Below are positions 18,383 through 36,814 of a DNA stretch of 64,000 bases, piece after piece (positions within the stretch are counted from its first letter, which is position 1; every line of letters begins with the position of its first letter). The stretch is from Aureimonas ureilytica. Its GTDB lineage: Bacteria; Pseudomonadota; Alphaproteobacteria; Rhizobiales; Rhizobiaceae. The translations under genes and the position numbers were made by a program. The DNA lies in the NCBI RefSeq assembly GCF_001475935.1, contig NZ_LDQA01000016.1, positions 1 through 64,000 on the forward strand, in the 5' to 3' direction. The notes beneath the pieces are model-generated. The model saw nothing but the letters and a program-made list of their open reading frames with translations, had not been told where the DNA came from and did no database searches.

Positions 18383-19399
18383 ATGAAACGACTTTCCTTC
18401 GGACTTCTCGCCATGGGTCTCGTGATGGCGGCGGTACTTCCGGCCGGCGCGCAGACGACGCTGCTCAACGTGTCCTACGATCCGACGCGCGAACTCTATC
18501 GTGACTACAATTCGGAATTCTCGAAGTTCTGGCAGGGGCAGGGCCATGACGCGGTCACCGTTCGCCAGTCGCATGGCGGATCGGGCGCGCAGGCGCGGAC
18601 GGTCATCGACGGGCTGGACGCCGATGTCGTGACGTTGGCGCTGGAGGCCGACATCGACGCCATCGCCAAGGCGACGAAGAAGATCCCCGCAGACTGGCGC
18701 ACCCGCCTGCCGCACAATTCCGCACCTTATACCTCGACCATCGTTTTCCTTGTGCGCAAGGGCAATCCCAAGGCGATCCATGACTGGAACGACCTGGTGA
18801 AGGATGGCGTGCAGGTGATCACACCCAACCCAAAGACATCGGGGGGTGCGCGCTGGAACTATCTGGCCGCTTGGGCCTATGCCAACAAAGCGTTCGGCAA
18901 CGATCCGGAAAAGACCAAGCAGTTCGTCGGCGACATCTATCGCCACGTTCCCGTTCTCGACACGGGCGCTCGCGGCTCCACCACGACCTTCGTGCAGCGC
19001 GGCATCGGCGACGTTCTCCTTGCTTGGGAGAACGAGGCGTTCCTGGCGCTGGAAGAACTCGGCCCCGATCAGTTCGAGATCGTTGTTCCCTCCATCTCGA
19101 TCTTGGCCGAGCCGCCGGTCGCGCTGGTGGATGGGAATATCGATGCCAAGGGCACGCGCGAGGTCGCCACGGCCTATCTCCAGCATCTCTACAGCGATGC
19201 CGGCCAGACGATCGCGGCCAAGCATTACTATCGCCCCTCCGAGCCAGAGAAGGTGACCGATAAGGCGCTTCTGGAGCGCTTTCCGAAGCTGAAACTCGTG
19301 TCGATCGACGATCCGCAGTTCGGCGGCTGGGCGAAGGCGCAGCCTGAGCATTTCGGAGACGGCGGCATCTTCGATCAGATCTACAAGCCGGGCAAGTAA
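18383..19399 (+). CDS. sbp: Sulfate ABC transporter substrate-binding protein
   Basis: This 338-residue periplasmic protein has a signal peptide ending near LPAGA|QT. It belongs to the Sbp/CysP family: [13 protein letters not shown] opening, [51 protein letters not shown] and [28 protein letters not shown]. It delivers sulfate (or thiosulfate) to CysTWA, encoded next. A very stable hairpin separates it from cysT, which suggests that binding protein and permease are made in different amounts. Confidence 0.95.
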
Positions 19400-19444
19400 G
19401 CGACCCGTTCCCCAAGCGTTCCTCCCACGACTTGGGGACTTCAC

Positions 19445-19474
19445 CCCGGCGGGACTTGTCCCGCCGGGTTCTTT
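19445..19474 (+). terminator. Strong hairpin between sbp and cysT
   Basis: Arms CCCGGCGGGA (from 19445) and TCCCGCCGGG (to 19468) form a 10-bp stem around CTTG, followed by TTCTTT. It sits 45 bases after the sbp stop and 111 bases before cysT. It can act as a partial terminator or as a 3' shield that raises sbp mRNA over permease mRNA. Confidence 0.8.
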
Positions 19475-19585
19475 GCACGGATAATGCCGGGTCACGGCAG
19501 GAATGAAGGGGTTCACATGCTCGACCGGACGGCTTTCCGGCGGCGGCTTTTTTCGCGCTCAATGCTCCCTCGCGTGGCTTGAGCG

Positions 19586-20437
19586 ATGGCGTCGTCCGTT
19601 CTGCCGCGCTTTCGCGCTCCCAGCGTCATACCGGGTTTCGGTCTCGCGCTCGGCTTCACGCTGACCTATTTGACGCTCCTCGTTCTCGTTCCGCTTTCGG
19701 CCTTGGTTCTGCGCAGTTCCAGCCTTGGTTGGGAGGAGTTCGTGCGGCTGGCCCTCGATCCGCGCGTTCTGGCGGCGCTGCGCCTGTCCTTTGGCGCGTC
19801 CTTCTTCGCGGCGCTCATCAATGCCGTGTTCGGCCTGCTGATCGCCTGGGTGCTCGTGCGCTATGATTTTCCCGGCCGGCGCTTCGTGGATGCCGTAATC
19901 GATCTGCCTTTCGCGCTGCCGACCGCCGTTGCCGGCATCGCGCTGACGGCGCTCTACGCGCCCAATGGATGGGTCGGGCAATTTCTGGCGCCGCTGGGCA
20001 TCAAGGTCGCCTACACCCCGCTCGGCATCGTGGTGGCGCTAGTCTTCGTGTCGCTGCCCTTCGTCGTGCGCACCGTGCAGCCCGTGCTGGAAGAGATCGA
20101 CGCGGAGGTGGAGCAGGCTGCCGCGACGCTCGGCGCGAACAGGTTTCAGACGGTGACCCGCGTCGTGCTGCCCAGCGTCATGCCGGCTTTGCTGACCGGC
20201 TTTGCTTTGGCGCTCGCCCGCTCGGTTGGCGAATATGGCTCGGTCATCTTCATCGCCGGCAACATTCCCTACGTCTCGGAAATCGCGCCGCTGCTGATCG
20301 TGATCCGATTGGAAGAGTTCAACTACGGCGGGGCGACGGCGGTCGCGGCCATGATGCTCGCGATCTCCTTCCTGATGCTTCTCGCCATCAACCTCATTCA
20401 GGCCTGGAGCCGGCGGAGATACGGTCATGGTGCTTGA
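19586..20437 (+). CDS. cysT: Sulfate ABC transporter permease CysT
   Basis: This 283-residue inner-membrane protein has six hydrophobic spans and the binding-protein-dependent permease loop ([20 protein letters not shown], about residues 166-185). The stretches [20 protein letters not shown] and [14 protein letters not shown] are CysT/CysU hallmarks. It pairs with CysW to form the sulfate channel. Its end overlaps cysW by 11 bases. Confidence 0.94.
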
Positions 20438-21317
20438 CGCCTCCTTGGGCGCGACGCCCGATGCACCCACGCGCCGCCGACCGGTGACGAGCGAAGCGCC
20501 GGCGGTCAAATGGGCTCTGATCGCCGTCGCGCTGGTCTTTCTTGCCTTCTTTCTGTTTCTGCCTCTGGTCGCCGTCTTCGTGGAGGCCTTCCGCAACGGG
20601 CTGTCGCTCTATTGGCAGGCGATCATCGAGCCCGACGCGCTGGCCGCGATCCGCCTGACGCTTCTGGTGGCGGCGATCTCGGTGCCGCTCAATGTCGTGT
20701 TCGGCTTGGCAGCGGCCTGGGCGATCGCGAAATTCGAGTTCAAGGGAAAGGCGCTGCTGATCACGCTGATCGACCTGCCATTCTCGGTCTCGCCGGTGAT
20801 CGCGGGTCTCGTCTACATCCTCCTGTTCGGAGCGCAGGGCTATTTCGCGCCGCTGCTTCAGGGCACGGGAATCCAGATCGTCTTCGCGTTGCCCGGCATC
20901 GTGCTCGCCACCGTCTTCGTCACGCTGCCCTTTGTCGCGCGCGAGCTGATCCCGCTCATGCAGGAGCAGGGGACGGGAGACGAGGAAGCGGCGATCTCGC
21001 TGGGCGCGAGCGGCTGGAAGACCTTCTTCCGGGTCACGCTGCCCAATGTGAAATGGGCACTGCTCTACGGCGTGCTTCTGTGCAACGCCCGCGCCATGGG
21101 TGAGTTCGGCGCGGTCTCGGTCGTTTCGGGCCGCATTCGCGGCCAGACGAGCACGATGCCCCTGCATGTCGAAATTCTCTACAATGAATACAGCTTCTCC
21201 GCCGCCTTCGCCGTCGCGTCCATTCTGGCCTTCCTGGCGTTGATCACGCTCGGCCTGAAGGCGCTTCTGGAATGGCGCTATGCCGGCGACATCGCCTCTT
21301 CGCGCGGCGGACACTGA
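20427..21317 (+). CDS. cysW: Sulfate ABC transporter permease CysW
   Basis: This 296-residue permease starts with a soluble tail of about 35 residues, then six membrane spans. CysW hallmarks are [22 protein letters not shown] in part, GEEAAISLG-type coupling loop ([16 protein letters not shown]) and [21 protein letters not shown] in part. It overlaps cysT and is followed 17 bases later by cysA, so all three are cotranscribed. Confidence 0.94.
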
Positions 21318-21334
21318 GTTTGGGAAACAGCTTC

Positions 21335-22378
21335 ATGGACATCAAAGTTCGCAATATCCGCAAGGAGTTCGATCGCTATCCCGCGCTGCACGACGTTTCG
21401 CTGGATATCCGCTCGGGCGAGCTGATCGCGCTTCTGGGACCTTCCGGCTCAGGCAAGACGACTCTGCTTCGGCTGATCGCGGGACTGGAATTCCCGACCG
21501 CCGGCCAGATTTTTTTCGGTGCGGAAGACGCGTCCGAGAAGAGCGTTCAAGAGCGTAATGTCGGCTTCATGTTCCAGCACTATGCGCTGTTCAAGCATAT
21601 GACCGTCGCCGAGAATATCGGCTTCGGTCTCAGCGTTCGCGACCGGGCGACCCGGCCCGGCAAGGCGGAGATCCGCCGCCGTGCCAGCGAACTGCTCGAC
21701 CTCGTGCAGCTGTCAGGTCTTGAGAAGCGCTATCCCAACCAGTTGTCGGGCGGTCAGCGGCAGCGCGTGGCCTTGGCTCGCGCGCTCGCCATCGAGCCGC
21801 GAGTCCTGCTTCTGGACGAACCCTTCGGTGCGCTGGACGCCAAGGTCCGCAAGGATCTGCGCCGCTGGTTGCGCGAGTTGCACGACAAGATCGGCCTCAC
21901 CACCATCTTCGTGACTCACGATCAGGAGGAGGCGCTGGAACTGGCGGACAGGGTCGTGGTCATGAGCCAGGGCCGGATCGAGCAGGTCGGCTCGGCCGAC
22001 GACATCTACGACCGTCCCAGCACGCCTTTCGTCTTTTCCTTCATCGGTCAGTCGAACCGGCTTCCCGTCGACGTGCGCGGCGGCGAAATCCGCCATGGCG
22101 ACATCGTTCTCGGCCGAACCGCCGAGGCCGACGGGCGCTGGAACCTCTATATGCGCCCGCACGATCTCGATCTCGTGGATGCCGGGGCGCCTGGGCTGAC
22201 AGGCACCGTGTCGCTGTCGCGCCGCGCCGGCGGCTCTCGCATCTCGGAATTCGAGTTCGGCCCGGAGCGGCACCGGATCGAGGTCGAGCTGCCCGCCGAT
22301 CGGGGCGGCGAGCCCGGCACCGAACTGCGCGTTCGCCCCCGCCGCTGGCAGCTTTACCGCGAGGGCGCGGCGGCCTGA
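21335..22378 (+). CDS. cysA: Sulfate ABC transporter ATP-binding protein CysA
   Basis: This 347-residue ATPase has Walker [10 protein letters not shown], signature [15 protein letters not shown], Walker [12 protein letters not shown] and H-loop [11 protein letters not shown], plus a C-terminal TOBE-like domain (about residues 240-345) with [14 protein letters not shown] 21335 starts [12 protein letters not shown], which matches the family start. An earlier in-frame codon overlaps cysW deeply and is not used. It energises sulfate import. It converges on the response regulator gene with 11 bases between stops. Confidence 0.95.
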
Positions 22379-22389
22379 GGGGCAGCCTG

Positions 22390-23322
22390 TCAGCGCTCGC
22401 TCAGCGTCTTCATCACCAGAAAACTCGCCGTCGCCCGGTTCTCGACGCCGAGCTTGGTGAAGACGACCTCCAGATGCTTGTTCACCGTCCTCGGACTGAG
22501 ATCGAGGATGGTGGCGATGTCGCGGTTGGATTTGCCGCGTGTCAGCCAAAGAAGCACGTCCGCCTCGCGGGCGGTGAGATTGAAATGCCGGCGCAGCAGG
22601 GCTTCCTCGCCAGCCGTATCGTCCACCGTCAGGCGGAAGAGATGCTCGTTCTCGCCCACCTTTCCGAGCGGGCTGAGTTGAAGGCGCACTCCGTCCTCCG
22701 ACATCAGTTCGCCGCCTGGCGGCGGAGGCGGTTGGGAACCGGCACGAAGCCAGTCGCACAGCGCGGTGGGCAGGGCAGGCCGCCCATCCTTATCAGCGAG
22801 GACTCCGGCCAGAAGCCGCGTCGCCTGCGGTGTCGACCAGAGAATGAGACCGTTGCCGTCGACAGCCAGAAGAAACCGGCCGGCCGTGTCGAGCGCGGCG
22901 CGGGCGTTCTGGGCCGCGCGCGCATTGGCAAGATGCACGCGCATCCGCGCCAGAAGCTCGTCCGGCACGATGGGCTTGGTGACGTAGTCCACACCGCCCG
23001 CTTCCAGCCCACGCACGACATGTTCCGTTTCCGCGAGCCCCGTCATGAAAATCACCGGCACATGGCGCAGCGCGGCGTCGGCCTTGAGGCGGCGCGTCGT
23101 CTCGAACCCGTCCATGCCCGGCATGACGGCGTCCATCAGAACGATGTCGGGCGTGATGGCCTCCGCGATCCCGAGCGCCTGCGCGCCGTCGAGCGCGACG
23201 AGAACGGTTGCCCCGCCAAGCTCGATCGCGTCCGTCAGCATGCGCAGCGTATCGGGCGAATCGTCCACGACGAGAACGATGTCGCGCTCCCGCTCCAGCG
23301 TGGACGTTGCCTTGCTAGTCAT
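22390..23322 (-). CDS. LuxR-type response regulator with REC, PAS-like middle and HTH
   Basis: This 310-residue regulator has a receiver domain at about 14-130 (acidic pair Asp20-Asp21, phospho-Asp64 in LMDAVMPGMDG, Lys116 in VTKP), a PAS-like segment at about 148-235 and a LuxR/FixJ HTH at about 247-305 (LTAREADVLLWLTRGKSNRD, SPRTVNKHLE). Its start overlaps the end of the NCS1-kinase gene by eight bases, so the two form one two-component unit. The extra PAS-like middle is unusual for NarL/FixJ regulators. The likely target is the urt promoter beyond the kinase gene. Confidence 0.9.
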   Translation of the reverse strand: MTSKATSTLERERDIVLVVDDSPDTLRMLTDAIELGGATVLVALDGAQALGIAEAITPDIVLMDAVMPGMDGFETTRRLKADAALRHVPVIFMTGLAETEHVVRGLEAGGVDYVTKPIVPDELLARMRVHLANARAAQNARAALDTAGRFLLAVDGNGLILWSTPQATRLLAGVLADKDGRPALPTALCDWLRAGSQPPPPPGGELMSEDGVRLQLSPLGKVGENEHLFRLTVDDTAGEEALLRRHFNLTAREADVLLWLTRGKSNRDIATILDLSPRTVNKHLEVVFTKLGVENRATASFLVMKTLSER

Positions 23323-26300
23323 CCCGCGCGGTCTCCAGCGCCTCTGCCAGCCGCTTGAGATCGAATCCGCTGAGGTGAACCTTCATCGCCTGTGTGAAGG
23401 GTCGATATTGCGGATCGTCGTCCAGAGCGGCCAGCTTCTGTTCGATCCCCCTTGCATAGCCGATCCGGCAGAAGCGGAGAAGTTCGGCGATGTCGGCGGG
23501 CGGAGGAAAGCGGAGCGGTTGGGTCACCGGCTCGGCGGCTGGCTTGGCGGTCGCGCCCGTCCATTCCAGTCCGAGCACATCGCGCACCGTCGCCAAGAGT
23601 TGGCGCAGGTCGAAGGGTTTGGGCAATTGGGCCGCCGCGTCCGACCCGCTCTCGCCCGCGCGGGGCGCTTCGGCGAAGGTGGCTGAGAGCATGACCGTGC
23701 GTCCCGTCTGGCCGCTGGCCCGCAGCGCTTTCGTCAGTTCCCATCCGTTCATACCGGGCATCTGGACATCCAGAAGGAAGAGATCAGGCCGCATCTCGGC
23801 GGTCACAGCCAGGGCAGCAGGCCCGTCGGGCGCTGTCAGAACGATGAAGCCGAGCGGGCGCAGAACCTCGACCATCAGATCGCGATGTGTTTCGTCGTCG
23901 TCCACCACGAGGACCGTGCGGCGCGAGCCGGCATAGCCCTCAATCGCAAGCGGCGCGCCGGGGTCGGTGGAAACAGGGACGATCGCCTCACGCGTGGCGG
24001 CGACGGCCGAGAGCATCACCCGCACTTCGAACCGGCTTCCCTTGCCGGGTGTGGAGGAAACCTTGATGTCACCGCCCATGAGATTGGCCAGAAGCCGCGT
24101 GATGGTGAGCCCCAGGCCGAGGCCCGGCGCCTTGCCCTGCGCGGCGCTGCCCCGCTCGAACGGCTCGAAGATACGCTCCAACTCAAGCGGTGGAATGCCA
24201 GGGCCCGTGTCGGACACGGTGATGATGGCAACCTGGCTGCGATAGGCGACATCGAAGCCGACGCTGCCGGCTTCCGTGTATTTCACGGCATTGGAGAGGA
24301 GATTGATGAGAATTTGGCGCAGTCGCTTCTCGTCGGTCCGCACCACTTCGGGGAGCGTCTCCGGCCGTGTGAAGCGAAACTCCAGCCCCTTGGCGCTGGC
24401 CTGGAGGCGGAACATGTCAACAAGCTGAGCCAGAAAATCGCCGAGGCGCACCTCGCCGCGCTGGAGCTGAAGCCGCCCCGTTTCGATCTTGGAGATATCC
24501 AGAAGCCCGTCGATCAGGCCCGACAGATGCTCGGCCGAGCGGCGAATCGTCTTGATGCCGCCCAGCTTGGCCTGCGGAATGGCGATATCCTGTTCCAGAA
24601 GCTGGGCATAGCCGAGGACGGCGTTGAGCGGCGTGCGCAATTCATGGCTCATGCCGACGACATACCGGCTCTTGGCCAGACTCGCCGCTTCGGCCATTTC
24701 CTTGGCTTTTTGGAGGGCTGCGTCGGTGCGCCGATGCGCCTCGATTTCCTTCAGGAGCAGCTGTGTTTGGCGGGCCGATTCCTCCTGCGCCACCCGCCGC
24801 GATTCCTGCGCCAGCACGAAGAACCATGTGGAAACACCAGCCACGATCATCAGCACGAAGAAGGCCGCCCAAAGTGCCTTCGCGATGACGTCCGTATCGT
24901 CGGGGCTGGCCAAGATTGCCTGATAGTAGATCAGCGACAGAACGACCGAAATGACGCCCGCCAGAAGGGCGAGGCCGCCGATATAATGGCCGACCTTGGC
25001 GTCGATCCTGCGGCGCAACCGCTCCGGCAGGGCGGCCTTGCCCGCCGAGGCCATCTGCGCGGAAAAACGCGCCTTGGGTTTGCAGAGATCGTGGCAACGC
25101 GCATCCAGCGAGCAGCAGAGCGAGCAGATCGGCGCGGCATAGGCCGGGCAATAGGCCATGTCCTCGGGCTCGAACGGGTGTTCGCAGATAGAGCAGGTGA
25201 TCTCCGTTCGCCTCTGCCACTCGGCGCGCGGCTTGCGGGCGAGATAGAACCGTCCGCCCGTGGCAAATGCGATGATGGGCGCGGTGATGAGGGCGACACC
25301 CAGCGCCACGAAGGCCGACAACGCCTGCGCCGTCTCCCCGAACACGCCGCCGAAGGCCAGAAGCGCCACCAGCGTCGCCAGACCCATCGAACCCAAGCCC
25401 ACCGGGTTCAGGTCGTAGAGATGCGCGCGCTTGAACTCGATGCCCTCAGGCGAAAGGCCGAGCGGCTTGTTGATGGCGAGATCGGCGGTGATCGCGCCGA
25501 GCCAGGCAACGGCGACATTGGCGAAGAGGCCGAACGTCACCTCCAGCGCCTCATAGATGCCGAGTTCCATCAGGAGGAGCGCGATGGCGACGTTGAAGAC
25601 GAGCCAGACGACGCGGCCGGGATGGCTATGGGTGAGGCGCGAGAAGAAGTTCGACCATGCGAGCGACCCCGCATAGGCGTTCATCACGTTGATCTTCAGC
25701 TGCGAGACCACGACGAAGGCCGCCGTGAGGAACGCCGCTGCCACCGGACTCGGCAGCACGTAGCCGAAGGCGACGTCGTACATATGCGCAGGCTCGGCTG
25801 CGTGTTCGGCCGGCACGCCGGCCCGCAGCGCGAGAACAGCGAGGAAGGAGCCGAACAGGAGCTTGGGCGCACCGAGCACGATCCAGCCCGGCCCGGCCGA
25901 CAAAAGCGCCAGCCACCAGGATCGCGTCGCCGGGTCGCGCCAGGATGTCGTCTTGGGCTTGGGGAGAAAGCGGAGGATGTCCACCTGCTCGCCGATCTGC
26001 GGCATGAGCGCCAGAATGACCGAGGCCGCCGCGCCGAACTTCACCAGCGACAGGCCATCCATCTCCCCGGCGTTCAGACCGGGGAAATGCAGCCACGCTT
26101 CGACCGAGCCCCAATCGTGCCAAAGGATGAAGCCGACCGGCAGAATGTTGAGACCGATCCACAGCGGTTGCGTGGCCAACTGGAACCGGCTGATCCAGGT
26201 GACGCCGTGGGTCACGAGGGGCACGACCGCGACGGCCGAGATGATATAGCCGAGCCAGAGCGGCAGGCCGAAGGCGAGTTCCAGCGCCGCCGTCATGATC

Positions 26301-26704
26301 GACGCTTCCACCGCGAACAGGATGAAGGTGAAGGTCGCGTAGATTAGCGATGTGACGGTCGAGCCGATATAGCCGAAGCCCGCGCCGCGCGTTAGAAGGT
26401 CGATGTCCACCCCATAGCGCGCGGCATAGAGGCTGATGGGCAGGCCGGTCACCAGCAGAAGGAGGCCGACGACGAGAATAGCCAGCGCCGCGTTCGAGAA
26501 GCCGAAGGAGAGGGTGATCGCGCCGCCCACGGCCTCCAGCGCCAGAAAGGAGATCGCGCCGATCGCCGTCTGCGACACTTGCGGCGCGCTCCAGCGCCGG
26601 GCGCGCTTGGCGGTGAAGCGCAGCGCATAGTCTTCAAGCGTCTGGTTGGCGACCCAGCGATTATAGTCGCGGCGCACCGGAAGGATCCGCTGGCGTCCCG
26701 TCAT
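23315..26704 (-). CDS. NCS1-transporter/hybrid histidine kinase fusion sensor
   Basis: This 1129-residue membrane sensor shows in order: a full-length NCS1 (nucleobase/hydantoin:cation symporter-1) module at residues 12-490, with DYNRWVANQTLEDYALRFT opening and the family segment NAYAGSLAWSNFF; a Cys cluster at 504-541 (C504xxC507, C519, C527xxC530C531, C537, C541); two more spans at about 573-598 and 609-632; a coiled coil; HisKA with His687 in GMSHELRTPLN; HATPase with N801/N805 and DTGPGI (832-837); a receiver with phospho-Asp979; and a 90-residue tail. ATG 26704 has AGGA before it and gives the usual NCS1 start. It is divergent from urtA and overlaps the LuxR regulator. It is the NCS1 analogue of the CbrA design, in which an SLC5 transporter is fused to a kinase. 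Confidence 0.93.
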   Translation of the reverse strand: MTGRQRILPVRRDYNRWVANQTLEDYALRFTAKRARRWSAPQVSQTAIGAISFLALEAVGGAITLSFGFSNAALAILVVGLLLLVTGLPISLYAARYGVDIDLLTRGAGFGYIGSTVTSLIYATFTFILFAVEASIMTAALELAFGLPLWLGYIISAVAVVPLVTHGVTWISRFQLATQPLWIGLNILPVGFILWHDWGSVEAWLHFPGLNAGEMDGLSLVKFGAAASVILALMPQIGEQVDILRFLPKPKTTSWRDPATRSWWLALLSAGPGWIVLGAPKLLFGSFLAVLALRAGVPAEHAAEPAHMYDVAFGYVLPSPVAAAFLTAAFVVVSQLKINVMNAYAGSLAWSNFFSRLTHSHPGRVVWLVFNVAIALLLMELGIYEALEVTFGLFANVAVAWLGAITADLAINKPLGLSPEGIEFKRAHLYDLNPVGLGSMGLATLVALLAFGGVFGETAQALSAFVALGVALITAPIIAFATGGRFYLARKPRAEWQRRTEITCSICEHPFEPEDMAYCPAYAAPICSLCCSLDARCHDLCKPKARFSAQMASAGKAALPERLRRRIDAKVGHYIGGLALLAGVISVVLSLIYYQAILASPDDTDVIAKALWAAFFVLMIVAGVSTWFFVLAQESRRVAQEESARQTQLLLKEIEAHRRTDAALQKAKEMAEAASLAKSRYVVGMSHELRTPLNAVLGYAQLLEQDIAIPQAKLGGIKTIRRSAEHLSGLIDGLLDISKIETGRLQLQRGEVRLGDFLAQLVDMFRLQASAKGLEFRFTRPETLPEVVRTDEKRLRQILINLLSNAVKYTEAGSVGFDVAYRSQVAIITVSDTGPGIPPLELERIFEPFERGSAAQGKAPGLGLGLTITRLLANLMGGDIKVSSTPGKGSRFEVRVMLSAVAATREAIVPVSTDPGAPLAIEGYAGSRRTVLVVDDDETHRDLMVEVLRPLGFIVLTAPDGPAALAVTAEMRPDLFLLDVQMPGMNGWELTKALRASGQTGRTVMLSATFAEAPRAGESGSDAAAQLPKPFDLRQLLATVRDVLGLEWTGATAKPAAEPVTQPLRFPPPADIAELLRFCRIGYARGIEQKLAALDDDPQYRPFTQAMKVHLSGFDLKRLAEALETARDD

Positions 26705-26770
26705 GTCGAACGTCCTGATCAGCGCCAGGAGGGCGCGGCTTCTCCATAGCCGGATCGCACGGCGAGGGGG

Positions 26771-26786
26771 TACGTCATTTGACGTA
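26771..26786. promoter_or_regulatory. Perfect inverted repeat between NCS1-kinase and urtA
   Basis: TACGTCA and TGACGTA form a 7-bp perfect inverted repeat with a two-base TT centre. It sits 67 bases before the kinase start and 77 bases before urtA, where a dimeric LuxR-type regulator could control both. It is flanked by GGGG on the left and TACCC on the right, which partly extend the symmetry. No sigma-54 promoter match is seen in this 158-base gap. Confidence 0.6.
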
Positions 26787-26862
26787 TACCCGCTCTTCAC
26801 CATTCCGCCGATGGTCCCCCACGGCGGCAATGAGAGCCGCGACGAATTTGAGGGGACCTTCC

Positions 26863-28167
26863 ATGCGACTTTCCCGAAAGGCCGGCTGGCTCTTGGGCGC
26901 TTACGCCGCCACCATGCTCTCGGGCCTCAGCGCCCGTGCCGCCGAGGATACGATCAAGGTCGGCATTCTCCACTCCCTGTCCGGCACGATGGCAATTTCA
27001 GAAACGACGCTGAAAGACGCCATGCTCATGCTCATCGACGAGCAGAACAAGAAGGGCGGTCTTCTCGGCAAGAAGCTCGAAGCCGTTGTGGTGGACCCCG
27101 CGTCCGACTGGCCGCTTTTTGCCGAGAAGGCTCGGCAGCTGATCGCGCAGGACAAGGTCGCCGCGACCTTCGGCTGCTGGACCTCCGTGTCGCGCAAGTC
27201 GGTTCTGCCGGTCTTCAAGGAACTGAACTCGATCCTCTTCTACCCCGTGCAGTACGAAGGCGAAGAGTCCGAGCGTAACGTCTTCTATACCGGCGCTGCT
27301 CCCAACCAGCAGGCGATCCCCGCCGTCGACTACCTGATGAAGGAAGGCGTGCAGCGCTGGGTTCTGGAGGGCACGGACTATGTCTATCCACGCACCACGA
27401 ACAAGATCCTCGAAGCCTATCTGAAGTCCAAGGGCGTCGCGGCCGAGGACATCAAGGTGAACTACACGCCCTTCGGCTTCTCCGATTGGCAGACCGAAGT
27501 CTCCGCCATCAAGGACTTCAGCGGCTCCGGCAAGAAGACCGCCGTGGTCTCGACCGTGAACGGCGACGCCAACGTGCCCTTCTACAAGGAACTGGCGAAC
27601 CAGGGTGTCTCGGCCGAGACGACGCCGGTCATGGCCTTCTCGGTGGGCGAAGAGGAACTCGCCGGCATCGACACCGCGCCGCTCGTCGGCCATCTCGCGG
27701 CTTGGAACTACTTCGAATCGGTCGATACGCCCGCGAACGAAGAGTTCATCGCGAAGTGGAAGGAGTTCACCAAGGACCCCAAGCGCGTGACGAACGACCC
27801 GATGGAAGCCAGCTATATCGGCTTCAACATGTGGGTGAAGGCCGTCGAGGCCGCCGGCACGACCGATCCAGACAAGGTAATCGACGCGATGGTCGGCGTC
27901 GCGGTGCCCAATCTGTCGGGCGGCTATTCCTCGATGGGCGCGAACCACCACATCACCAAGCCCGTCCTGATCGGCGAAATCCAGGCCGATGGCCAGTTCG
28001 AGATCGTCGATCAGACGCCCGGCCTCGTGCTTGGCGATGCATGGTCGGATTACCTGCCGGAATCGGCGCCGCTGATCGCCGACTGGCGCAAGCCCATGAG
28101 CTGCGGCAACTTCAATACGAAGACCGGCAAGTGCGGCGGCGCCGACGCCAAGGCCGCCTCGAACTAA
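26863..28167 (+). CDS. urtA: Urea ABC transporter substrate-binding protein UrtA
   Basis: This 434-residue periplasmic protein has a signal peptide (MRLSRKAGW ... ARA|AED). It belongs to the UrtA/FmdD branch of the branched-chain amino-acid-type binding proteins: IKVGILHSLSGTMAISE, FGCWTSVSRKSVLPV, LFYPVQYEGEE and GAAPNQQAIPAVDY. It binds urea or short amides. ATG 26863 follows AGGGGACC at a good distance. Earlier in-frame codons lack this and would spoil the signal peptide. The next gene is 118 bases on, beyond a strong hairpin. Confidence 0.95.
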   Translation: MRLSRKAGWLLGAYAATMLSGLSARAAEDTIKVGILHSLSGTMAISETTLKDAMLMLIDEQNKKGGLLGKKLEAVVVDPASDWPLFAEKARQLIAQDKVAATFGCWTSVSRKSVLPVFKELNSILFYPVQYEGEESERNVFYTGAAPNQQAIPAVDYLMKEGVQRWVLEGTDYVYPRTTNKILEAYLKSKGVAAEDIKVNYTPFGFSDWQTEVSAIKDFSGSGKKTAVVSTVNGDANVPFYKELANQGVSAETTPVMAFSVGEEELAGIDTAPLVGHLAAWNYFESVDTPANEEFIAKWKEFTKDPKRVTNDPMEASYIGFNMWVKAVEAAGTTDPDKVIDAMVGVAVPNLSGGYSSMGANHHITKPVLIGEIQADGQFEIVDQTPGLVLGDAWSDYLPESAPLIADWRKPMSCGNFNTKTGKCGGADAKAASN

Positions 28168-28206
28168 GCCCCACGCGTCCGCCGATATCAGGCGGATGAC
28201 CTTGGC

Positions 28207-28238
28207 AAAACGGCCCCCCGCTGCGGGCGGGCCGTTTT
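28207..28238 (+). terminator. Strong hairpin between urtA and urtB
   Basis: Outer arms AAAACGGCCC (28207-28216) and GGGCCGTTTT (28229-28238) pair perfectly and enclose an inner CCCG/CGGG stem. The TTTT then CTCG at the 3' side suits a partial intrinsic terminator. It lies 40 bases after the urtA stop and 48 bases before urtB. Confidence 0.8.
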
Positions 28239-28285
28239 CTCGTCTGATCGGCCGGTGTCTCGGCCCTCCCCAAACAGGCTTTTCC

Positions 28286-29941
28286 ATGTTGAAGACGCTT
28301 CGCGCCCGATGGGCGGGTACTTGGGAGGCGCTGGCTTTCGGCCTTGCGTTCCTTCTGGGCCTCGCTCTTGCAACAGCCGGCCCCTCGCTTGCGCAAGGGG
28401 CGGACCCCGCTTCCATCATCGCCGGCTTTGCGGGCAAGAAGAGCTTCGAGGAGACCGAAGCCAATGTGCGCGCGCTGGCCGCGACGGGTGATCCCCGCGT
28501 GTCGACCACGCTGGACGCGCTAGCCTCCGGCGATCTCTACTACTCCAAGACCGACAACCGCGTCGTGATCGCGAGCGGCAAGGGAACCTCCTTTGCCACC
28601 TCCGACCCGCTGACCGGCGCGTCGCTGGGCGATGCGCCGAAGGCGAGCCTGGAAAAGGTTCGCGTCAAGAATTCCATTCGCGCGCTCGTGGCGGAGTTGA
28701 AGGGCGGGCTGACGCTCGGCTCCAGCGACCCGGCCGAGCGCATGGCCGCCGCCGTCAGCCTGTTCGATAAGGCCTCGCCCGATCAGCTGGCCGTGCTGGA
28801 CTCTGCCATCGCCAAGGAAACCGATCCGGCGATACGCGCGCGCTTTGCCGAGGCGAGGGCGGTGGCCGTGCTGCGCTCCGACCGCCCTTCCGAGGAGCGG
28901 CGCGAGGCCGCGCAACTCGTCGCTGCGCGCGGGGATCGCGCCGCGCAGAACGTCCTGTCGGGGTTTGTCGCCGATCCTGATCCGGCTGTCGCCAAGGCGG
29001 CCAGTGCGGGCGCCGCCTCGATCGCGCAGACGATCGCGCTTTGGGGGCAGGCGCAAAACATCTGGTACGGGCTTTCGCTCGGCTCGGTTCTGCTTCTGGC
29101 GGCGATCGGCCTCGCCATTACCTTCGGGGTCATGGGCGTCATCAACATGGCGCATGGCGAGATGGTGATGATCGGCGCCTACACGACCTTCGTCGTGCAG
29201 CAGACACTCCGCCTCCATGCGCCGCAATGGCTGGACTGGAGCCTCGCGCTCGCCCTGCCGCTCGCCTTTCTCGTCGCCGGTTTCGTCGGCTTCGTCATGG
29301 AGCGCGGCATCATCCGCTTCCTCTATGGGCGTCCGCTCGAAACCCTGCTCGCAACCTTCGGCGTGTCGCTGATCCTCCAGCAGGCGGTTCGTACGATCTT
29401 CGGCCCGACCAATCGCGAGGTGTCCAATCCCTCTTGGATGTCCGGCTCCTTCGATGTCGGTCTCATGGCCGTTACCTGGAACCGGCTCTGGATCATCGTC
29501 TTCGCGCTCGCCGTCTTCGCCGCGCTGCTCTTCGCGCTGAACCGCACCTCGGCCGGCCTCAAGATGCGCGCCGTCACACAGAACCGGCGCATGGCCGCCG
29601 CCATGGGCATCCGCACGCCGATGGTGGACGCCATGACCTTCGCGCTCGGCTCCGGCATCGCCGGCATGGCCGGCGTCGCGCTCAGCCAGATCGACAATGT
29701 GTCGCCCGACTTGGGCCAAGGCTACATCATCGACAGTTTCATGGTCGTGGTCTTCGGCGGCGTCGGCAATCTCTGGGGCACGCTGGTCGGCGCCATGAGT
29801 CTGGGCATCGTCAACAAGTTCCTTGAGCCCTATGCCGGCGCGGTGCTCGGCAAGATCGTCGTGCTCGTCCTCATCATCCTCTTCATTCAGAAGCGCCCGC
29901 GCGGCCTCTTCGCCCTCAAGGGAAGGTTCGTCGACGCATGA
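28286..29941 (+). CDS. urtB: Urea ABC transporter permease UrtB
   Basis: This 551-residue protein has a signal-like N terminus and about 240 residues of mostly helical periplasmic sequence before the membrane part, which is usual for UrtB. The LivH-type permease domain follows, with ITFGVMGVINMAHGEMVMIG, FGVSLILQQAVRTIFGPTNRE in part, and MAAAMGIRTPMVDAMTFALG in part. ATG 28286 gives MLKTLRARW. Its last four bases overlap urtC (ATGA). Confidence 0.94.
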   Translation: MLKTLRARWAGTWEALAFGLAFLLGLALATAGPSLAQGADPASIIAGFAGKKSFEETEANVRALAATGDPRVSTTLDALASGDLYYSKTDNRVVIASGKGTSFATSDPLTGASLGDAPKASLEKVRVKNSIRALVAELKGGLTLGSSDPAERMAAAVSLFDKASPDQLAVLDSAIAKETDPAIRARFAEARAVAVLRSDRPSEERREAAQLVAARGDRAAQNVLSGFVADPDPAVAKAASAGAASIAQTIALWGQAQNIWYGLSLGSVLLLAAIGLAITFGVMGVINMAHGEMVMIGAYTTFVVQQTLRLHAPQWLDWSLALALPLAFLVAGFVGFVMERGIIRFLYGRPLETLLATFGVSLILQQAVRTIFGPTNREVSNPSWMSGSFDVGLMAVTWNRLWIIVFALAVFAALLFALNRTSAGLKMRAVTQNRRMAAAMGIRTPMVDAMTFALGSGIAGMAGVALSQIDNVSPDLGQGYIIDSFMVVVFGGVGNLWGTLVGAMSLGIVNKFLEPYAGAVLGKIVVLVLIILFIQKRPRGLFALKGRFVDA

Positions 29942-31095
29942 TCACCGCTCGCTTTCTGGGGCCTCGTGCCCTCTGGCTCGCCGGACTTCTCGTTCTCGTC
30001 GCCGTGCTCGTGCCCCTCTCGAACCTCGCGCTCGAAATCGGCCATCCCTTGCGCGTACCGGACCATCTCGTACCCCTTCTCGGCAAGTATCTGTCCTACG
30101 CCATCCTGGCGCTCAGCCTCGATCTCGTCTGGGGCTATGTCGGCATTCTCTCGCTCGGCCATGGCGCGTTCTTCGCGCTCGGCGGCTATGCGATGGGCAT
30201 GTATCTGATGCGCCAGATCGGTAGCCGGGGCGTTTACGCCAATCCGGTGCTTCCCGATTTCATGGTCTTCCTGAACTACAAGGAACTGCCCTGGTTCTGG
30301 CAGGGGTTCGATCAGTTCTGGTTCGCCGCGCTCATGGTGCTGCTCGTGCCGGGGCTCCTAGCCTTCCTGTTCGGCTTTTTTGCCTTCCGCTCGCGCGTCA
30401 CCGGCGTCTATCTCTCGATCATCACGCAGGCCCTGACCTATGCGCTGCTGCTCGCCTTCTTTCGGAACGATATGGGCTTTGGCGGCAATAACGGCCTGAC
30501 CGATTTCAAGGATATTCTCGGCTTCTCCATCCAGGCCGGCTCGACCCGCGCCGCGCTCTTCGCCGCGACGGCAATCGTGCTCGCGCTCTTCGTCCTGATG
30601 GTTTCGGCCGTGACGCGCTCCAAGCTCGGGCTTCTGATGGTGGCGGTGCGCGACGCGGAAAGCCGCACGCGGTTCCTGGGCTGGCGGGCCGAGCATGTGA
30701 AGCTCTTCGCCTTCACGCTGTCGGCCGTCATGGCGGGTGTGGCCGGAGCGCTTTACGTGCCGCAGGTCGGCATCATCAACCCTGGCGAGTTCGCGCCGCT
30801 CAACTCGATCGAGGTCGTGGTCTGGACGGCGGTCGGCGGGCGCGGCACGATCCTCGGGCCGGTGCTCGGCGCGCTGCTGGTCAATGGCGGCAAGAGCTAT
30901 TTCACCGCCGCCGCGCCCGAAAGCTGGCTTTTCGTCCTCGGCTCGCTCTTCGTGGTCGTCACGCTCTTCCTGCCGCGCGGCATCGTCGGCACTATCGACC
31001 ACGGCTGGCGCGCCCTGTCCGAGCGCCGCCGCGCGGCCCGTGCCGAGAAGGGCGTCTCTTCGGACGCTGCCACCAATCCTAGCCCGGCGGAGTGA
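29938..31095 (+). CDS. urtC: Urea ABC transporter permease UrtC
   Basis: This 385-residue LivM-type permease has about ten hydrophobic segments. Landmarks are DLVWGYVGILSLGHGAFFAL, NNGLTDFKDILGF, VRDAESRTRFLGW and VVWTAVGGRGTILGPVLGA. It forms the urea channel with UrtB. It overlaps urtB at its start and is followed by urtD after five bases or with a four-base overlap, depending on the start taken there. Confidence 0.94.
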   Translation: MITARFLGPRALWLAGLLVLVAVLVPLSNLALEIGHPLRVPDHLVPLLGKYLSYAILALSLDLVWGYVGILSLGHGAFFALGGYAMGMYLMRQIGSRGVYANPVLPDFMVFLNYKELPWFWQGFDQFWFAALMVLLVPGLLAFLFGFFAFRSRVTGVYLSIITQALTYALLLAFFRNDMGFGGNNGLTDFKDILGFSIQAGSTRAALFAATAIVLALFVLMVSAVTRSKLGLLMVAVRDAESRTRFLGWRAEHVKLFAFTLSAVMAGVAGALYVPQVGIINPGEFAPLNSIEVVVWTAVGGRGTILGPVLGALLVNGGKSYFTAAAPESWLFVLGSLFVVVTLFLPRGIVGTIDHGWRALSERRRAARAEKGVSSDAATNPSPAE

Positions 31096-31100
31096 CCCTC

Positions 31101-31940
31101 ATGAGCATGACGAACGCGACCCCGGCGCGCATTTCCCCCCATCCTTACGCGACGCTTCTGGCCGAGGCCCGCGAGAAAGAGGCTGCCGGCCGCCCGCCAC
31201 GCGGCGAAACGCTTCTCTATCTCAACGGCGTGACCAAGAGTTTCGACGGCTTCAAGGCGATCAACGATCTCTCGCTGGTGGTCGCGCGCGGCGAAATGCG
31301 GGCGATCATCGGCCCGAACGGTGCCGGCAAGACGACCATGATGGACATAATCACTGGCAAGACCCGGCCGGACGCGGGGGAGGTCTACTTCGCCGGAAAC
31401 ACCGACCTGACGCGCCATGACGAGGCGGAAATCGCCTCCATGGGCATTGGCCGCAAGTTTCAGAAGCCCACCGTTTTCGAAAGTCATACGGTGGAGGACA
31501 ATCTGGTTCTCGCACTCTCAGGTCAGCGCGGCATCTTCTCGACGCTGTTTCACAAACGGTCAGAAAGCGATTCCAAGCGGATCGATACAATCCTCGAAAC
31601 CGTTCGCCTGACGGCCAAGCGGCACCTGCCGGCGGCCGATCTCAGCCATGGGCAGAAGCAATGGTTGGAAATCGGGATGCTGCTGGCGCAGGATCCCGAA
31701 CTTCTTCTGGTGGACGAGCCGGTGGCGGGCATGACCGACGCCGAAACCGAGGAAACGGCCAAGCTGCTGCGCGAGATCGCCGAGACGCGCTCCGTCGTCG
31801 TGGTCGAGCACGACATGCACTTCGTTCGCGCATTGGGCGTGAAGGTGACCTGCCTGCACGAAGGCCATGTTCTCGCCGAAGGCCCGCTGGATCAGGTCTC
31901 GGCCGATCCGCGTGTCATCGAAGTCTATCTGGGGCGCTGA
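31101..31940 (+). CDS. urtD: Urea ABC transporter ATP-binding protein UrtD
   Basis: This 279-residue ATPase has Walker A GPNGAGKTT, the UrtD-type signature LSHGQKQWLEIG (His in place of the first Gly of LSGGQ), Walker B LLLVDEPVAGMT and H-loop VVVEHDMHFV. ATG 31101 is chosen because GGAG lies eight bases before it. A GTG at 31092 overlapping the urtC stop is possible. An N-terminal stretch of about 35 residues precedes the ABC domain. Confidence 0.94.
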   Translation: MSMTNATPARISPHPYATLLAEAREKEAAGRPPRGETLLYLNGVTKSFDGFKAINDLSLVVARGEMRAIIGPNGAGKTTMMDIITGKTRPDAGEVYFAGNTDLTRHDEAEIASMGIGRKFQKPTVFESHTVEDNLVLALSGQRGIFSTLFHKRSESDSKRIDTILETVRLTAKRHLPAADLSHGQKQWLEIGMLLAQDPELLLVDEPVAGMTDAETEETAKLLREIAETRSVVVVEHDMHFVRALGVKVTCLHEGHVLAEGPLDQVSADPRVIEVYLGR

Positions 31941-31942
31941 CC

Positions 31943-32635
31943 ATGCTGAGTGTTTCGAACGTCGATCTCTACTACGGCGCGGCGCAGGCTCTGCGGGGCG
32001 TTTCCCTCGAGGCCAAGAAAGGCGAGATCACCTGCGTCCTCGGCCGCAACGGCGTCGGCAAGACCTCGCTCATGCGGGCCATCGTCGGGCAGCAGGCGAT
32101 CCGCTCCGGACAGATCGCGCTGGATGGCTCCGATCTGAAAGGCGAAGCGCCCTACACGCGGGCGCGTCGCGGCATCGGCTTCGTGCCGCAGGGACGAGAG
32201 GTCTTTCCGCTGCTTTCCGTCAAGGAAAACCTCCAAACTGGCTTCGCACCGGTGAAGCGCGGTGAGCGCACCATCCCCGATCATGTGTTCGAGCTCTTCC
32301 CGGTCCTGAAATCCATGCTCTCACGGCGCGGCGGTGATCTGTCGGGCGGCCAGCAGCAGCAACTCGCCATCGGCCGGGCCTTGGTGACGCGCCCCAACCT
32401 TCTCGTGCTGGACGAGCCGACCGAGGGCATCCAGCCCTCGATCATCAAGGATATCGGCCGAGCCATCCGCTACCTGAAGGAGGCGGGCATGGCCGTTCTC
32501 TTGGTCGAGCAATATCTCGAATTCTGCCGGGAACTGGCCGATAAGGTCTATATCATGGACCGCGGGCAGATCGTGTTCGAGGGCGTCGGGGCCGATCTGG
32601 ACGACCCCGACGTGCGCAAGCATCTGACCGTCTGA
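31943..32635 (+). CDS. urtE: Urea ABC transporter ATP-binding protein UrtE
   Basis: This 230-residue LivF-type ATPase has Walker A GRNGVGKTS, IGFVPQGREVFPLLSVKENL, signature LSGGQQQQLAIGRAL and Walker B LLVLDEPTEGIQPS. It completes the UrtABCDE importer and starts two bases after urtD ends. No urease or urea amidolyase genes are in the window, so urea breakdown must be encoded elsewhere. It converges on the acetoacetyl-CoA synthetase gene with only three bases between stops. Confidence 0.95.
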   Translation: MLSVSNVDLYYGAAQALRGVSLEAKKGEITCVLGRNGVGKTSLMRAIVGQQAIRSGQIALDGSDLKGEAPYTRARRGIGFVPQGREVFPLLSVKENLQTGFAPVKRGERTIPDHVFELFPVLKSMLSRRGGDLSGGQQQQLAIGRALVTRPNLLVLDEPTEGIQPSIIKDIGRAIRYLKEAGMAVLLVEQYLEFCRELADKVYIMDRGQIVFEGVGADLDDPDVRKHLTV

Positions 32636-34609: not shown

Positions 34610-34768
34610 GGATCGGGCCTCGCTGAAACGGGATGAAACGATGGGAGTATGACGCGGGCTCAGGCGTCAAGAAGTCACTGTAAACCAAGTCCACAGATGA
34701 TCTTGGGAATGAAACATCCTGTTAAAGGCCGTCCTCATACCTTGGCTCCGATACGGAAGGGCCACCGG

Positions 34769-36814
34769 ATGATATCGACGATCGATTACCTCGGGATGCG
34801 ATTTCTCGACGCGAATCTGACCGGCGTTCGCTCGGCCTTCCGTGAGGCGCTGCGGGGGCGATTCGGCTATGTCGTCACGCCCAATGTGGACCATGTCGTT
34901 TCCTATCATCGTGGCGACGCCGCCTTGCGCGAAGTGTATGATGGTGCGCTCTTTCAGATTTGCGACAGCCGCGTCCTATCGCGACTGGCTGGCCTGTCGG
35001 GTCTTCACCTGACGCCTTGTCCCGGCTCCGACCTGACGCGGGACCTGCTCGAACGCCCGCTCTTTCCGGCGATGCGGATTGCCGTGATCGGGCCCGATAC
35101 GGACGCCTTCCGCGATCTCCAGCAGCGCTTTCCCTCGGTGTCTCTGACGCTGATCCCATCGGCGCAAAGGCTCTCCATCGGCTCGCCGGAATGGAAGGAA
35201 ACGGTGGCGCGCACGGCAGGCACGCGGTGGGACCTGCTGCTCGTCTGCTTGTCCTTTCCCAAGCAGGAGTTCTTCGCGCGCGATCTCGGCCGGGCGGGGC
35301 GGGTGCATGGGTTGGCGCTTTGCGTCGGGGCGAGCATCGATTTCCTCACCGGGCGGCAGAAGCGCGCGCCCGAAATCTTTCGCAAGGCCGGGCTCGAATG
35401 GCTGCACCGTTTGGCGCAAGACCCTCGGCGAATGGCCTCGCGCTATCTTCAGCGGGGGCCTGCCGTCTTCGCCTTGGCCGGCCGGGAATGGGCGCGACTG
35501 CGTCAGGAGGGACCCATGGTGGCGGATCGGCCAGGGTCGCCCAAACGCGTTCTTTTTCTCACGACCGTCATGCCGCACGAGCGGATGACGGGCGGTGAAA
35601 TCGCCTCCATGAACTTCATCGACGGACTCAAAGCCTCGGGCTGCGACGTTGAGGTCATCGCTTATCGGCGGGAGGGACAGGCGGACGACCTGCCGGTCGG
35701 TTTCCTGTCGCCCGTGGACTGGCCGATCGAGAGTGCGGGTCGTCCCGTGCGCAGCGGGGCCTGGATGGCGTCGGCCTTTCTGGCGAGGCGTCCTTATTCC
35801 GTGCAGAAATACGTTTCCCGCGCCATGCGCCGCTTCGTGCGCCTGCGCTTGCGCAGCGTGCCCGCGGATCTGGCTGTGGTCGATCATGCCCAGGCCAGTT
35901 GGCTTCTTCCGCTTCTGCCTGCCGATCTGCCGACCGTTCTGATCGCCCACAATGTCGAGCATCAGCTCTACGAGGGGCATGGCGACGCCCTGTCCGATGT
36001 GGCGAAGCCCCGTCTTCGCGATCGTCTGAAAGCGCGGATCTATCGACGCGAAGGCGAACGGCTCCTGGCGGTCGAGCGACAGGCGATGGCGGGCGTGCGC
36101 GAAGTCTGGACCCTGGCGGAAGACGATGCGGCGGCTTTGGCCCGCCTGTCGCCGCAGACGCCGGCTCGCAGTTTCGGCTTGCCCGGCCAACCCTTCCTCT
36201 CGTCGGCCGAGGCCCTGCCGGAGCCGACGATCGATGTCGGTCTATTGGGAAGCTGGGTCTGGGACGTCAATCGGGCAGGCCTTGACTGGTTTCTCACGGT
36301 CGTCGCACCCCGCTTGCCGGCTCATGTGAAGGTCGTCGTCGGCGGCAAATCGCTCCATCCGCCAGGTACCGTGACAGGTTCCGTTCGCTTCGCCGGATTT
36401 GTGCCGGATGCCGGGGCGTTCTTGCGGTCGTGCTCCGTGGTGGTCATTCCCAGCACCACGGGATCGGGCGTGCAGATCAAGACGATCGAGACCCTCGGGC
36501 TTGGTGTGCCCACCGTCGCGACGACGGTTGCCCTGCGCGGCATCGACGATCCGCCGCTGGATCTGCGCCTCGCCAATAGCGCGACCGATATGGTCAACGC
36601 CATTCTGGAAACGCTGCAAGCACCGCGCCCGGACGGGCGCGATGGCGCGGCCTGGCGTCTGGCGCGCGAGCGGGCCTTCGAAACCGATATTCGAAACGCT
36701 TTGTCCGGGCTGTTGTCGCCGCAGACGAGCGATAGGACCTCGAAGGACGCGGCGGATCGTATTCGGTCGACGCGGCAAGCGCCGCCGGCGCGGATCACGG
36801 AAGACGCTGCATAG
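34769..36814 (+). CDS. Bifunctional glycosyltransferase: WecG/TagA/CpsF (GT26) fused to GT4-like domain
   Basis: In this 681-residue protein residues 1-245 are a WecG/TagA/CpsF domain (VVTPNVDHV, IAVIGPDTDAF, LLVCLSFPKQEFFARDL, VGASIDFLTGRQKRAPE and RLAQDPRRMASRYL). Residues 258-650 are a GT-B glycosyltransferase with FLTTVMPHERMTGGEIAS, IAHNVEHQLYEGH and VVIPSTTGSGVQIKTIETLG, which is GT4-like. The usual Asp-Gly of TagA proteins appears as Asp-Ser (ICDSRVLSRL). ATG 34769 has GGAAGG before it. It stands alone with a terminator after it and probably makes two successive sugar transfers in an exopolysaccharide. Confidence 0.88.
   Translation: MISTIDYLGMRFLDANLTGVRSAFREALRGRFGYVVTPNVDHVVSYHRGDAALREVYDGALFQICDSRVLSRLAGLSGLHLTPCPGSDLTRDLLERPLFPAMRIAVIGPDTDAFRDLQQRFPSVSLTLIPSAQRLSIGSPEWKETVARTAGTRWDLLLVCLSFPKQEFFARDLGRAGRVHGLALCVGASIDFLTGRQKRAPEIFRKAGLEWLHRLAQDPRRMASRYLQRGPAVFALAGREWARLRQEGPMVADRPGSPKRVLFLTTVMPHERMTGGEIASMNFIDGLKASGCDVEVIAYRREGQADDLPVGFLSPVDWPIESAGRPVRSGAWMASAFLARRPYSVQKYVSRAMRRFVRLRLRSVPADLAVVDHAQASWLLPLLPADLPTVLIAHNVEHQLYEGHGDALSDVAKPRLRDRLKARIYRREGERLLAVERQAMAGVREVWTLAEDDAAALARLSPQTPARSFGLPGQPFLSSAEALPEPTIDVGLLGSWVWDVNRAGLDWFLTVVAPRLPAHVKVVVGGKSLHPPGTVTGSVRFAGFVPDAGAFLRSCSVVVIPSTTGSGVQIKTIETLGLGVPTVATTVALRGIDDPPLDLRLANSATDMVNAILETLQAPRPDGRDGAAWRLARERAFETDIRNALSGLLSPQTSDRTSKDAADRIRSTRQAPPARITEDAA

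Follow-up and report, generated by a model that had tools for sequence, protein, structure and literature searches.

The first 64,000 nucleotides of contig NZ_LDQA01000016.1 of Aureimonas ureilytica, hereafter the window, encode a hybrid histidine kinase with an N-terminal membrane module of the NCS1 transporter fold and a LuxR-type response regulator, divergent from the urea importer operon urtABCDE. We propose that kinase and regulator form a two-component system that senses urea or amides through a receptor repurposed from an NCS1 transporter and activates its importer genes, a reading to which we give a probability of about 0.65. The regulatory link between the kinase and urt is supported by comparative tests of gene neighborhood and of a predicted operator upstream of urtA. 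In the open-licence literature, we recognized neither an NCS1-kinase nor a two-component system for urt; the original prediction, made from this DNA alone, had named no described role for an NCS1-kinase that was known to it.

The kinase open reading frame extends over 23315-26830 on the reverse strand, and the ATG at 26704 is the start conserved among relatives. HisKA, HATPase_c, and receiver domains are found by Pfam within this one chain, as in a hybrid histidine kinase. The kinase gene shares 8 bp with the gene of the response regulator, which joins a receiver bearing the phosphoacceptor aspartate to a GerE helix-turn-helix domain and thus belongs to the NarL/LuxR type. Among 149 distinct kinase loci, 145 have a homologue of this regulator directly downstream, and Asp64 is present in 141 of the 145 aligned homologues, the other four having gaps at this position. 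On its opposite side, the kinase gene is separated by 158 bp from the divergent urtA, which starts at 26863, and all five subunits of the UrtABCDE importer (26863-32635) score above their NCBIfam cut-offs. Both the gene overlap and the arrangement of the kinase facing urtABCDE across 158 bases had been claimed in the original prediction and are borne out.

The NCS1 nature of the N-terminal module is revealed by its fold. Pfam and NCBIfam give no NCS1 family match to the kinase even at E ≤ 10, PF02133 does not reach its cut-off in the module, and a PF02133 gene that we found in the A. ureilytica genome sits on another contig. Likewise, a PDB sequence search with profiles of the N-terminus found no NCS1 structure. 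As these family and sequence searches gave nothing, the assignment relies on fold comparison and on a bridging relative. An AlphaFold2 model of the module, built from a 23-sequence alignment (predicted local distance difference test, pLDDT, 77.9; predicted template modeling score, pTM, 0.78), has as its top Foldseek matches in the PDB the NCS1 transporters Mhp1 (2jln; E 5.7e-10, template modeling score by target, TMt, 0.68) and CodB (7qoa; E 6.2e-10, TMt 0.73). SLC5 and other LeuT folds rank behind NCS1, the first SLC5-type match being 5nva (E 3.3e-6, TMt 0.60). Pfam lists no SLC5 family for the kinase, and no STAC domain turned up in the Pfam scan, which did not include a direct comparison with a STAC model; a Cys-rich linker occupies that place. 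In hhalign, 13 kinase modules match five genuine NCS1 proteins with a probability of 93.8% (E 1.8e-7, 382 columns).

The bridging relative, L348 from genome G392, is a 497-residue protein without a kinase that emerged as a weaker match of the wider profile search described below. It passes PF02133 (36.4 bits, cut-off 23.5), and its alignment to the kinase modules has a probability of 99.8% (E 8.2e-30, 29% identity). In the gene run at L348:7949-12984, it is accompanied by a UrtA/AmiC-like binding protein, an AmiR_N-ANTAR protein, and a hydrolase of the carbon-nitrogen type, so that the run looks like an amidase- or nitrilase-type cluster. L348 is a possible amide or nitrile transporter and a possible near ancestor of the sensor. 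Direct family models aside, the N-terminal module is therefore NCS1 in fold and ancestry. The whole NCS1 module of the original prediction stands on these two counts and fails by direct family model.

The kinase is linked to urea and amide genes in related bacteria. A first set of 101 related genomes contains 33 kinase loci in 32 genomes, the window included, and a second set comprises 80 named loci, the best 80 of 584; three genomes are common to both. Together with the wider set below, these yield 152 loci and, after removal of the copies L053, L097, and L101, 149 distinct kinases; the counts over 113 loci (site placement, hexamer, and formamidase) still include the copies. A UrtA-like gene lies near the kinase at 30 of 33 loci of the first set, that is, at the window and at 29 of the other 32 (L022, L032, and L033 being negative in the fetched DNA), and at 77 of 80 loci of the second, where L084, L097, and L111 are without one. 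The linkage of NCS1-kinases to urt, on which the original prediction had staked itself beforehand, thus exists.

Two kinds of UrtA occur at these loci, one at least 73% identical to that of the window and one a paralogue of about 40% identity, and they define urt-type and amide-type loci. We labeled L022 and L097 as urt on account of a urtA gene that is preceded by the site at a distance of about 12 kb, and L032 and L084 as amide because of the formamidase and amidase next door; L033 and L111, whose kinases lie at or near a contig end, carry no type label. An FmdA-family formamidase is present at 23 of the 27 amide-type loci versus none of the 80 urt-type loci. Nine of the 27 also hold an aliphatic amidase, and ureC is found at 17 of the 80. 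At L132, the one locus tested, subunits A to C of the amide-linked importer pass the NCBIfam Urt cut-offs. We therefore rejected the description of this importer as FmdDEF-like rather than Urt; at about 40% identity, it represents a second importer of the Urt type, and the importer name alone cannot separate urea from amide. It has recently been suggested that formamide may be imported by a urt cluster lying next to a formamidase (PMC13209695).

The association extends beyond these sets. A profile of the N-terminal module matches 56 of 398 Pseudomonadota genomes, in some as fragments. From the 57 loci with E < 1e-200, of which those in G000, G040, G049, and G094 were covered already, we fetched 39, some of the same order, and within the fetched DNA every one of these includes at least one gene for a UrtA-like protein, FmdA, an amidase, or UreC. 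Four genomes of this wider set, G358, G423, G443, and G571, hold two kinases each, the first beside the formamidase gene fmdA and the second beside the urease gene ureC (L275/L276, L278/L279, L283/L284, and L288/L287). Further, G031 has one urt-type and one amide-type kinase, and G294 two kinases near formamidase. At L284, L287, and L293, the kinase lies with urease, with no Urt match in the fetched 20 kb, and at L084 with an aliphatic amidase, with no UrtA-E match in the fetched DNA. The shorter NCS1 kinases of L032, L299, and L306, near formamidase, have neither a receiver nor a LuxR-type partner and are a second, differently wired branch. An unrooted tree of 84 of the 149 kinases contains four changes between the two kinds, three of them forced by supported branches. 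As gains and losses are equivalent on an unrooted tree, the precedence of amide sensing is no more than a suggestion, drawn from L348 and from the broader distribution of the amide-type rows.

A further pointer to regulation is a 16-bp palindrome between the divergent genes, TACGTCATTTGACGTA, the predicted operator of the response regulator; like the Cys-rich linker, it is a feature that the original prediction had missed. Its pattern matches once in the window versus 0.01 expected. The strict form TACGTN6RCGTA occurs within 500 bp upstream of urtA at 46 of the 48 urt-type loci that have kinase and urtA close to each other. With 0.9-7.8 kb between the two genes, the site lies upstream of urtA at 32 of 32 loci and upstream of the kinase at none. 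A general self-regulating site at the kinase is thereby rejected, while G034, with its urtA start about 12 kb from the kinase start, has a site at urtA and also one at the kinase. In far-type loci such as L059, L071, and L086, about two to five kb lie between urtA and the kinase.

Across the 101 related genomes, the site precedes urtA in every genome that has both this gene and a urt-type kinase (25 of 25), versus 0 of 44 that have urtA but no such kinase (Fisher p 2.4e-19, ignoring kinship). Of the 44, 39 are without any NCS1 kinase among the matches listed, with seven candidates scored per genome, and five have the amide type only. One urtA per genome was compared; a second copy in G045 is also without the site. 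On the UrtA tree, kinase and site each change eight times, and all five independent pairs on well-supported branches agree, giving a sign test value of 0.0625, the floor for five pairs. By these comparisons, a system of kinase, site, and urt is well supported for the alphaproteobacterial urt-type. In the wider set, the loose pattern TACGN8CGTA is present within 600 bp upstream of the kinase, UrtA, or FmdA at 24 of 39 loci. Two wider-set urea-type loci with a site, L279 and L291, carry the variants TACGCCACCTTGCGTA and TACGCCACCTGGCGTA, 100 and 126 bp upstream of urtA. At L100, direct repeats TTGCGGTGCA flank a variant palindrome on both sides upstream of the UrtA-like gene (by eye). Palindromes TACGTCATCTGACGTA (G007:C1:3115667) and TACGTCAACTGACGTA (G096:C141:343406) lie away from any urt-type kinase locus.

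The position of the palindrome resembles that of a known operator. A GATAGT-like hexamer follows it after 23 nt at 57 of 80 urt-type loci and after 24 nt at three. If this hexamer is the -10 box, the palindrome would occupy about -51 to -36, centered near -43. In the acs promoter, the LuxR-family regulator CrbR, partner of the SLC5 kinase CrbS, depends on an inverted repeat that spans -52 to -36 (PMC5715377). We saw no clear -35 box at the urtA promoter, and the mctP promoter of RpuR likewise has a -10 but no recognized -35 box (PMC9100948).

Within the membrane module, the substrate cage of Mhp1 is lost. We take Trp117 and Trp220 of Mhp1 to be the two tryptophans caging hydantoin, and Ser312 and Thr313 to be residues of its Na2 sodium site; transfer of this numbering through a profile alignment of 18% identity makes single positions risky. 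By this alignment, the Trp117 position is Leu or Phe in the kinases and the Trp220 position Leu in 149 of 149, Gln121 is replaced by Glu in all 148 sequences reaching that column, Ser312 by Lys in 149 of 149, and Thr313 by Ile, while Asn318 is kept in 149 of 149. The Mhp1-type ligand cage and the Na2 residues Ser312/Thr313 are thus absent from the kinase module, although neither is obligatory for NCS1 proteins. Cavity-mapped positions are among the invariant ones in kinases. L348 keeps the Glu of transmembrane helix 3 (TM3) and has Arg at the sodium-site Lys position; therefore, both substitutions mark this NCS1 branch and not the receptor. In contrast, Glu57 and Glu239 (numbered with Met=1) are invariant in the kinases reaching them and are Phe in L348. 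Judged from sequence, the loss of the cage fits a small non-ring ligand and speaks against a flat ring ligand. Since amides and urea recur as a theme with stand-alone L348 as well as in all clades that we examined, a carboxamide-type ligand is likely.

Behind the module, seven of the eight linker cysteines are conserved in 149 of 149 distinct homologues and one in 148. The linker reaches the cut-off of no Pfam family and is possibly metal-binding. It is followed by two long helices, 571-600 and 602-651 in the numbering of the model, which is Met=1 numbering plus one.

Architecture, fold, gene pairing, and the site with its tie to urtA and the kinase emerge from comparison, and from them we infer ligand binding, phosphorelay, and activation of urt. 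In the proposed mechanism, urea would enter the central cavity of the NCS1 module, and its occupancy would shift the LeuT-type fold. The Cys-rich linker and the two extra helices might relay this shift to HisKA. As the genes of the two proteins overlap, the kinase presumably phosphorylates the LuxR-type regulator, with its own receiver serving in the relay or as a brake. A phosphorylated regulator dimer would then bind TACGTCATTTGACGTA near -43 and activate urtABCDE. Sister kinases may act likewise for short-chain amides.

Several observations weigh against this proposal. The exact TACGTCATTTGACGTA pattern occurs nowhere else in the genome, but its reversed control is just as rare, with a single match on each strand, so that the meaning of the site rests on position and conservation rather than on rarity. 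The looser pattern matches at least once anywhere in 77 of 101 genomes, in most less often than the reversed control. Even at close urt-type loci, the strict site is missed in 2 of 48, all of which have the looser one. Of the 27 amide-type loci, 23 have the loose site and one the strict site, most carrying a variant such as TACGCN6GCGTA. At 15 of 39 wider loci, including 9 of 11 urea-type loci, no site was found in 600 bp, and 20 of the 80 urt-type loci show no hexamer of the kind described. In the module, we had considered the sodium-site Lys as a mark of lost transport, which is rejected by the Arg of stand-alone L348. Similarly, urt-type and amide-type kinases of alphaproteobacteria can be told apart at positions 129 and 341 (Met=1), but wider-set urea-type kinases deviate, with the amide-type Phe at 129 in 10 of 11 and the urt-type Met at 341 in none (8 Thr, 3 Ala), and we rejected the pair as general urea-versus-amide specificity residues. 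Finally, the co-occurrence of kinase, urt, and site could be mere linkage if the three are passed on together as a block; the loci at which they are separated make this explanation weaker without eliminating it.

Such linkage is also what would be expected if the palindrome belonged to another regulator and merely traveled with the kinase-urt block, since block transfer would yield the same pattern. We consider this quite improbable: the site keeps to urtA at the 32 loci where site and kinase lie apart, it stands both at urtA and at the kinase across the large separation in G034, and it co-varies with residues of the regulator's helix-turn-helix domain, although lineage may explain the last point. 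Nor do we favor a repressor whose hold on urt is relieved by urea. Position alone is compatible with repression, but a site near -43 is where CrbR activates, and the lack of a clear -35 box recalls the RpuR-dependent mctP promoter, which makes repression rather doubtful.

The remaining alternatives concern what the module senses. It could be a working transporter, a true transceptor that signals during urea or amide uptake, as CbrA is described as joining transport and kinase roles (PMC13022988), and the Arg/Lys and Glu substitutions are also present in L348, which is presumably a transporter. The change of Glu57 and Glu239 to Phe in L348 and the loss of transport in the fused ammonium sensor Ks-Amt5 (PMC5764959) point the other way without excluding transport here, and we regard a transceptor as unlikely, if quite conceivable. 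The two precedents are opposed, Ks-Amt5 having lost transport and become a sensor and CbrA being the opposite case (PMC5764959, PMC13022988). The tight pairing with an ABC importer at most loci would also arise from a module that does not bind urea and whose input is instead the state of the Urt importer, UrtA in its loaded form, or a nitrogen signal from within the cell. A precedent for a sensor reading importer state is BceS, which reads BceAB. We judge this improbable in view of the loci with amidase (L084) or urease (L284, L287, and L293) that show no Urt match in the fetched DNA, the cavity-mapped positions among the invariant ones, and the free-standing relative L348, which lies with an amide or nitrile hydrolase. 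Hydantoin, allantoin, or a nucleobase, the substrates of ordinary NCS1 transporters, would be candidate ligands by family. We hold these to be very improbable because both cage tryptophans are replaced and no catabolic gene for them, such as hydantoinase or allantoinase, was recognized among recurring neighbors (clusters in at least 6 of 49 loci, judged by eye, few scanned and partly annotated). Among the ligands first named, urea fits, as do short-chain amides near formamidase, and allantoin, hydantoin, and cytosine are not favored.

The features of the system are compiled in Table 1. UrtB (28196-29941) is extended at its N-terminus by a long stretch in which Pfam matches a HEAT repeat. Elsewhere in the window, a sulfate-type ABC importer cluster at 18383-22378, convergent with the response regulator gene, reads as a binding protein, two permeases, and a CysA-like ATPase, of which Pfam identifies the ATPase as such. 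At 34649-36814, a 721-residue open reading frame appears by eye to join two glycosyltransferases, the first of the WecG/TagA type.

Table 1. Positions of the sensor, regulator, importer, and predicted promoter elements in the window.
Feature	Position	Strand	Basis or remark
Response regulator, receiver + LuxR-type helix-turn-helix	22390..23322	-	PF00072, E 7e-27; PF00196, E 4.4e-17
NCS1-type hybrid histidine kinase, whole gene	23315..26704	-	1,129 aa; start set by conservation
Receiver domain of hybrid kinase	23585..23914	-	PF00072, E 3.6e-21
HATPase_c catalytic domain	24014..24337	-	PF02518, E 5.3e-28
HisKA dimerization/phosphoacceptor domain	24476..24673	-	PF00512, E 2e-14
Two further long helices between linker and kinase	24755..24997	-	DSSP on AlphaFold2 model
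Cys-rich linker, 8 Cys (504, 507, 519, 527, 530, 531, 537, 541; Met=1)	25082..25195	-	
NCS1-fold membrane module, about residues 1-490 (Met=1)	25235..26704	-	AlphaFold2, Foldseek, hhalign
Palindrome TACGTCATTTGACGTA, 16 bp, predicted operator of the response regulator	26771..26786	.	
-10-like hexamer GATGGT (consensus GATAGT)	26810..26815	+	23 nt after palindrome
urtA, urea ABC importer binding protein	26863..28167	+	TIGR03407, 554 bits (cut-off 493)
urtB, permease	28196..29941	+	TIGR03409, 434 bits (cut-off 250)
urtC, permease	29938..31095	+	TIGR03408, 436 bits (cut-off 296)
urtD, ATPase	31092..31940	+	TIGR03411, 382 bits (cut-off 304)
urtE, ATPase	31940..32635	+	TIGR03410, 339 bits (cut-off 286)

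Several known systems share parts of this design. CrbS/CrbR (MxtR/ErdR) also combines a LeuT-fold transporter module on a hybrid kinase with a LuxR-family regulator; in the acs promoter, its operator is an inverted repeat spanning -52 to -36, a position like that of the site predicted here, and actP belongs to its regulon (PMC5715377). It differs in its SLC5 module, STAC linker, operator, and acetate as ligand, as opposed to NCS1, a Cys-rich linker, and urea or amides. ActP is an acetate permease. In the rhizobium Sinorhizobium fredii, RpuS/RpuR is a transporter-fused kinase system that activates an importer operon, that of the pyruvate symporter MctP, but with an SLC5/STAC kinase, a direct-repeat operator at -80 to -43, and pyruvate (PMC9100948). 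CbrA of Pseudomonas is a transporter-kinase fusion termed a transceptor (PMC13022988). Unlike the kinase described here, it has an SLC5-STAC architecture, histidine as ligand, and CbrB as partner. This partner is of the NtrC type. Ks-Amt5 is a nitrogen transporter turned kinase sensor with an altered binding site (PMC5764959), but has the Amt fold, senses ammonium, and has no urt link. Finally, the NCS1 transporters Mhp1 and CodB share the fold and a distant sequence relation; they have no kinase, and the cage tryptophans and sodium-site serine of Mhp1 are not kept in the kinase module.

Transporter-kinase fusions with a known ligand are few; those in the literature covered here are SLC5 types for acetate, pyruvate, and histidine and an Amt type for ammonium. 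If our proposal is true, NCS1-kinases would form a widespread class linked to urea and amides that adds a new receptor fold and suggests a dedicated urea-sensing switch in rhizobia. More tentatively, and at slightly less than even odds, we envisage a Pseudomonadota-wide family of urea and short-chain-amide receptors derived from an amide-linked, cage-less NCS1 branch, each with its own LuxR-type regulator and mostly a TACGT-N6-ACGTA-like operator, in which amide sensing would have come first and urea sensing would have arisen repeatedly, with new wiring to urt or urease genes on each occasion. The amide types, the urea types, and the stand-alone relative would then form a natural series for following the path from transporter to receptor and a change of ligand, and the operator would make part of the regulon predictable from sequence.

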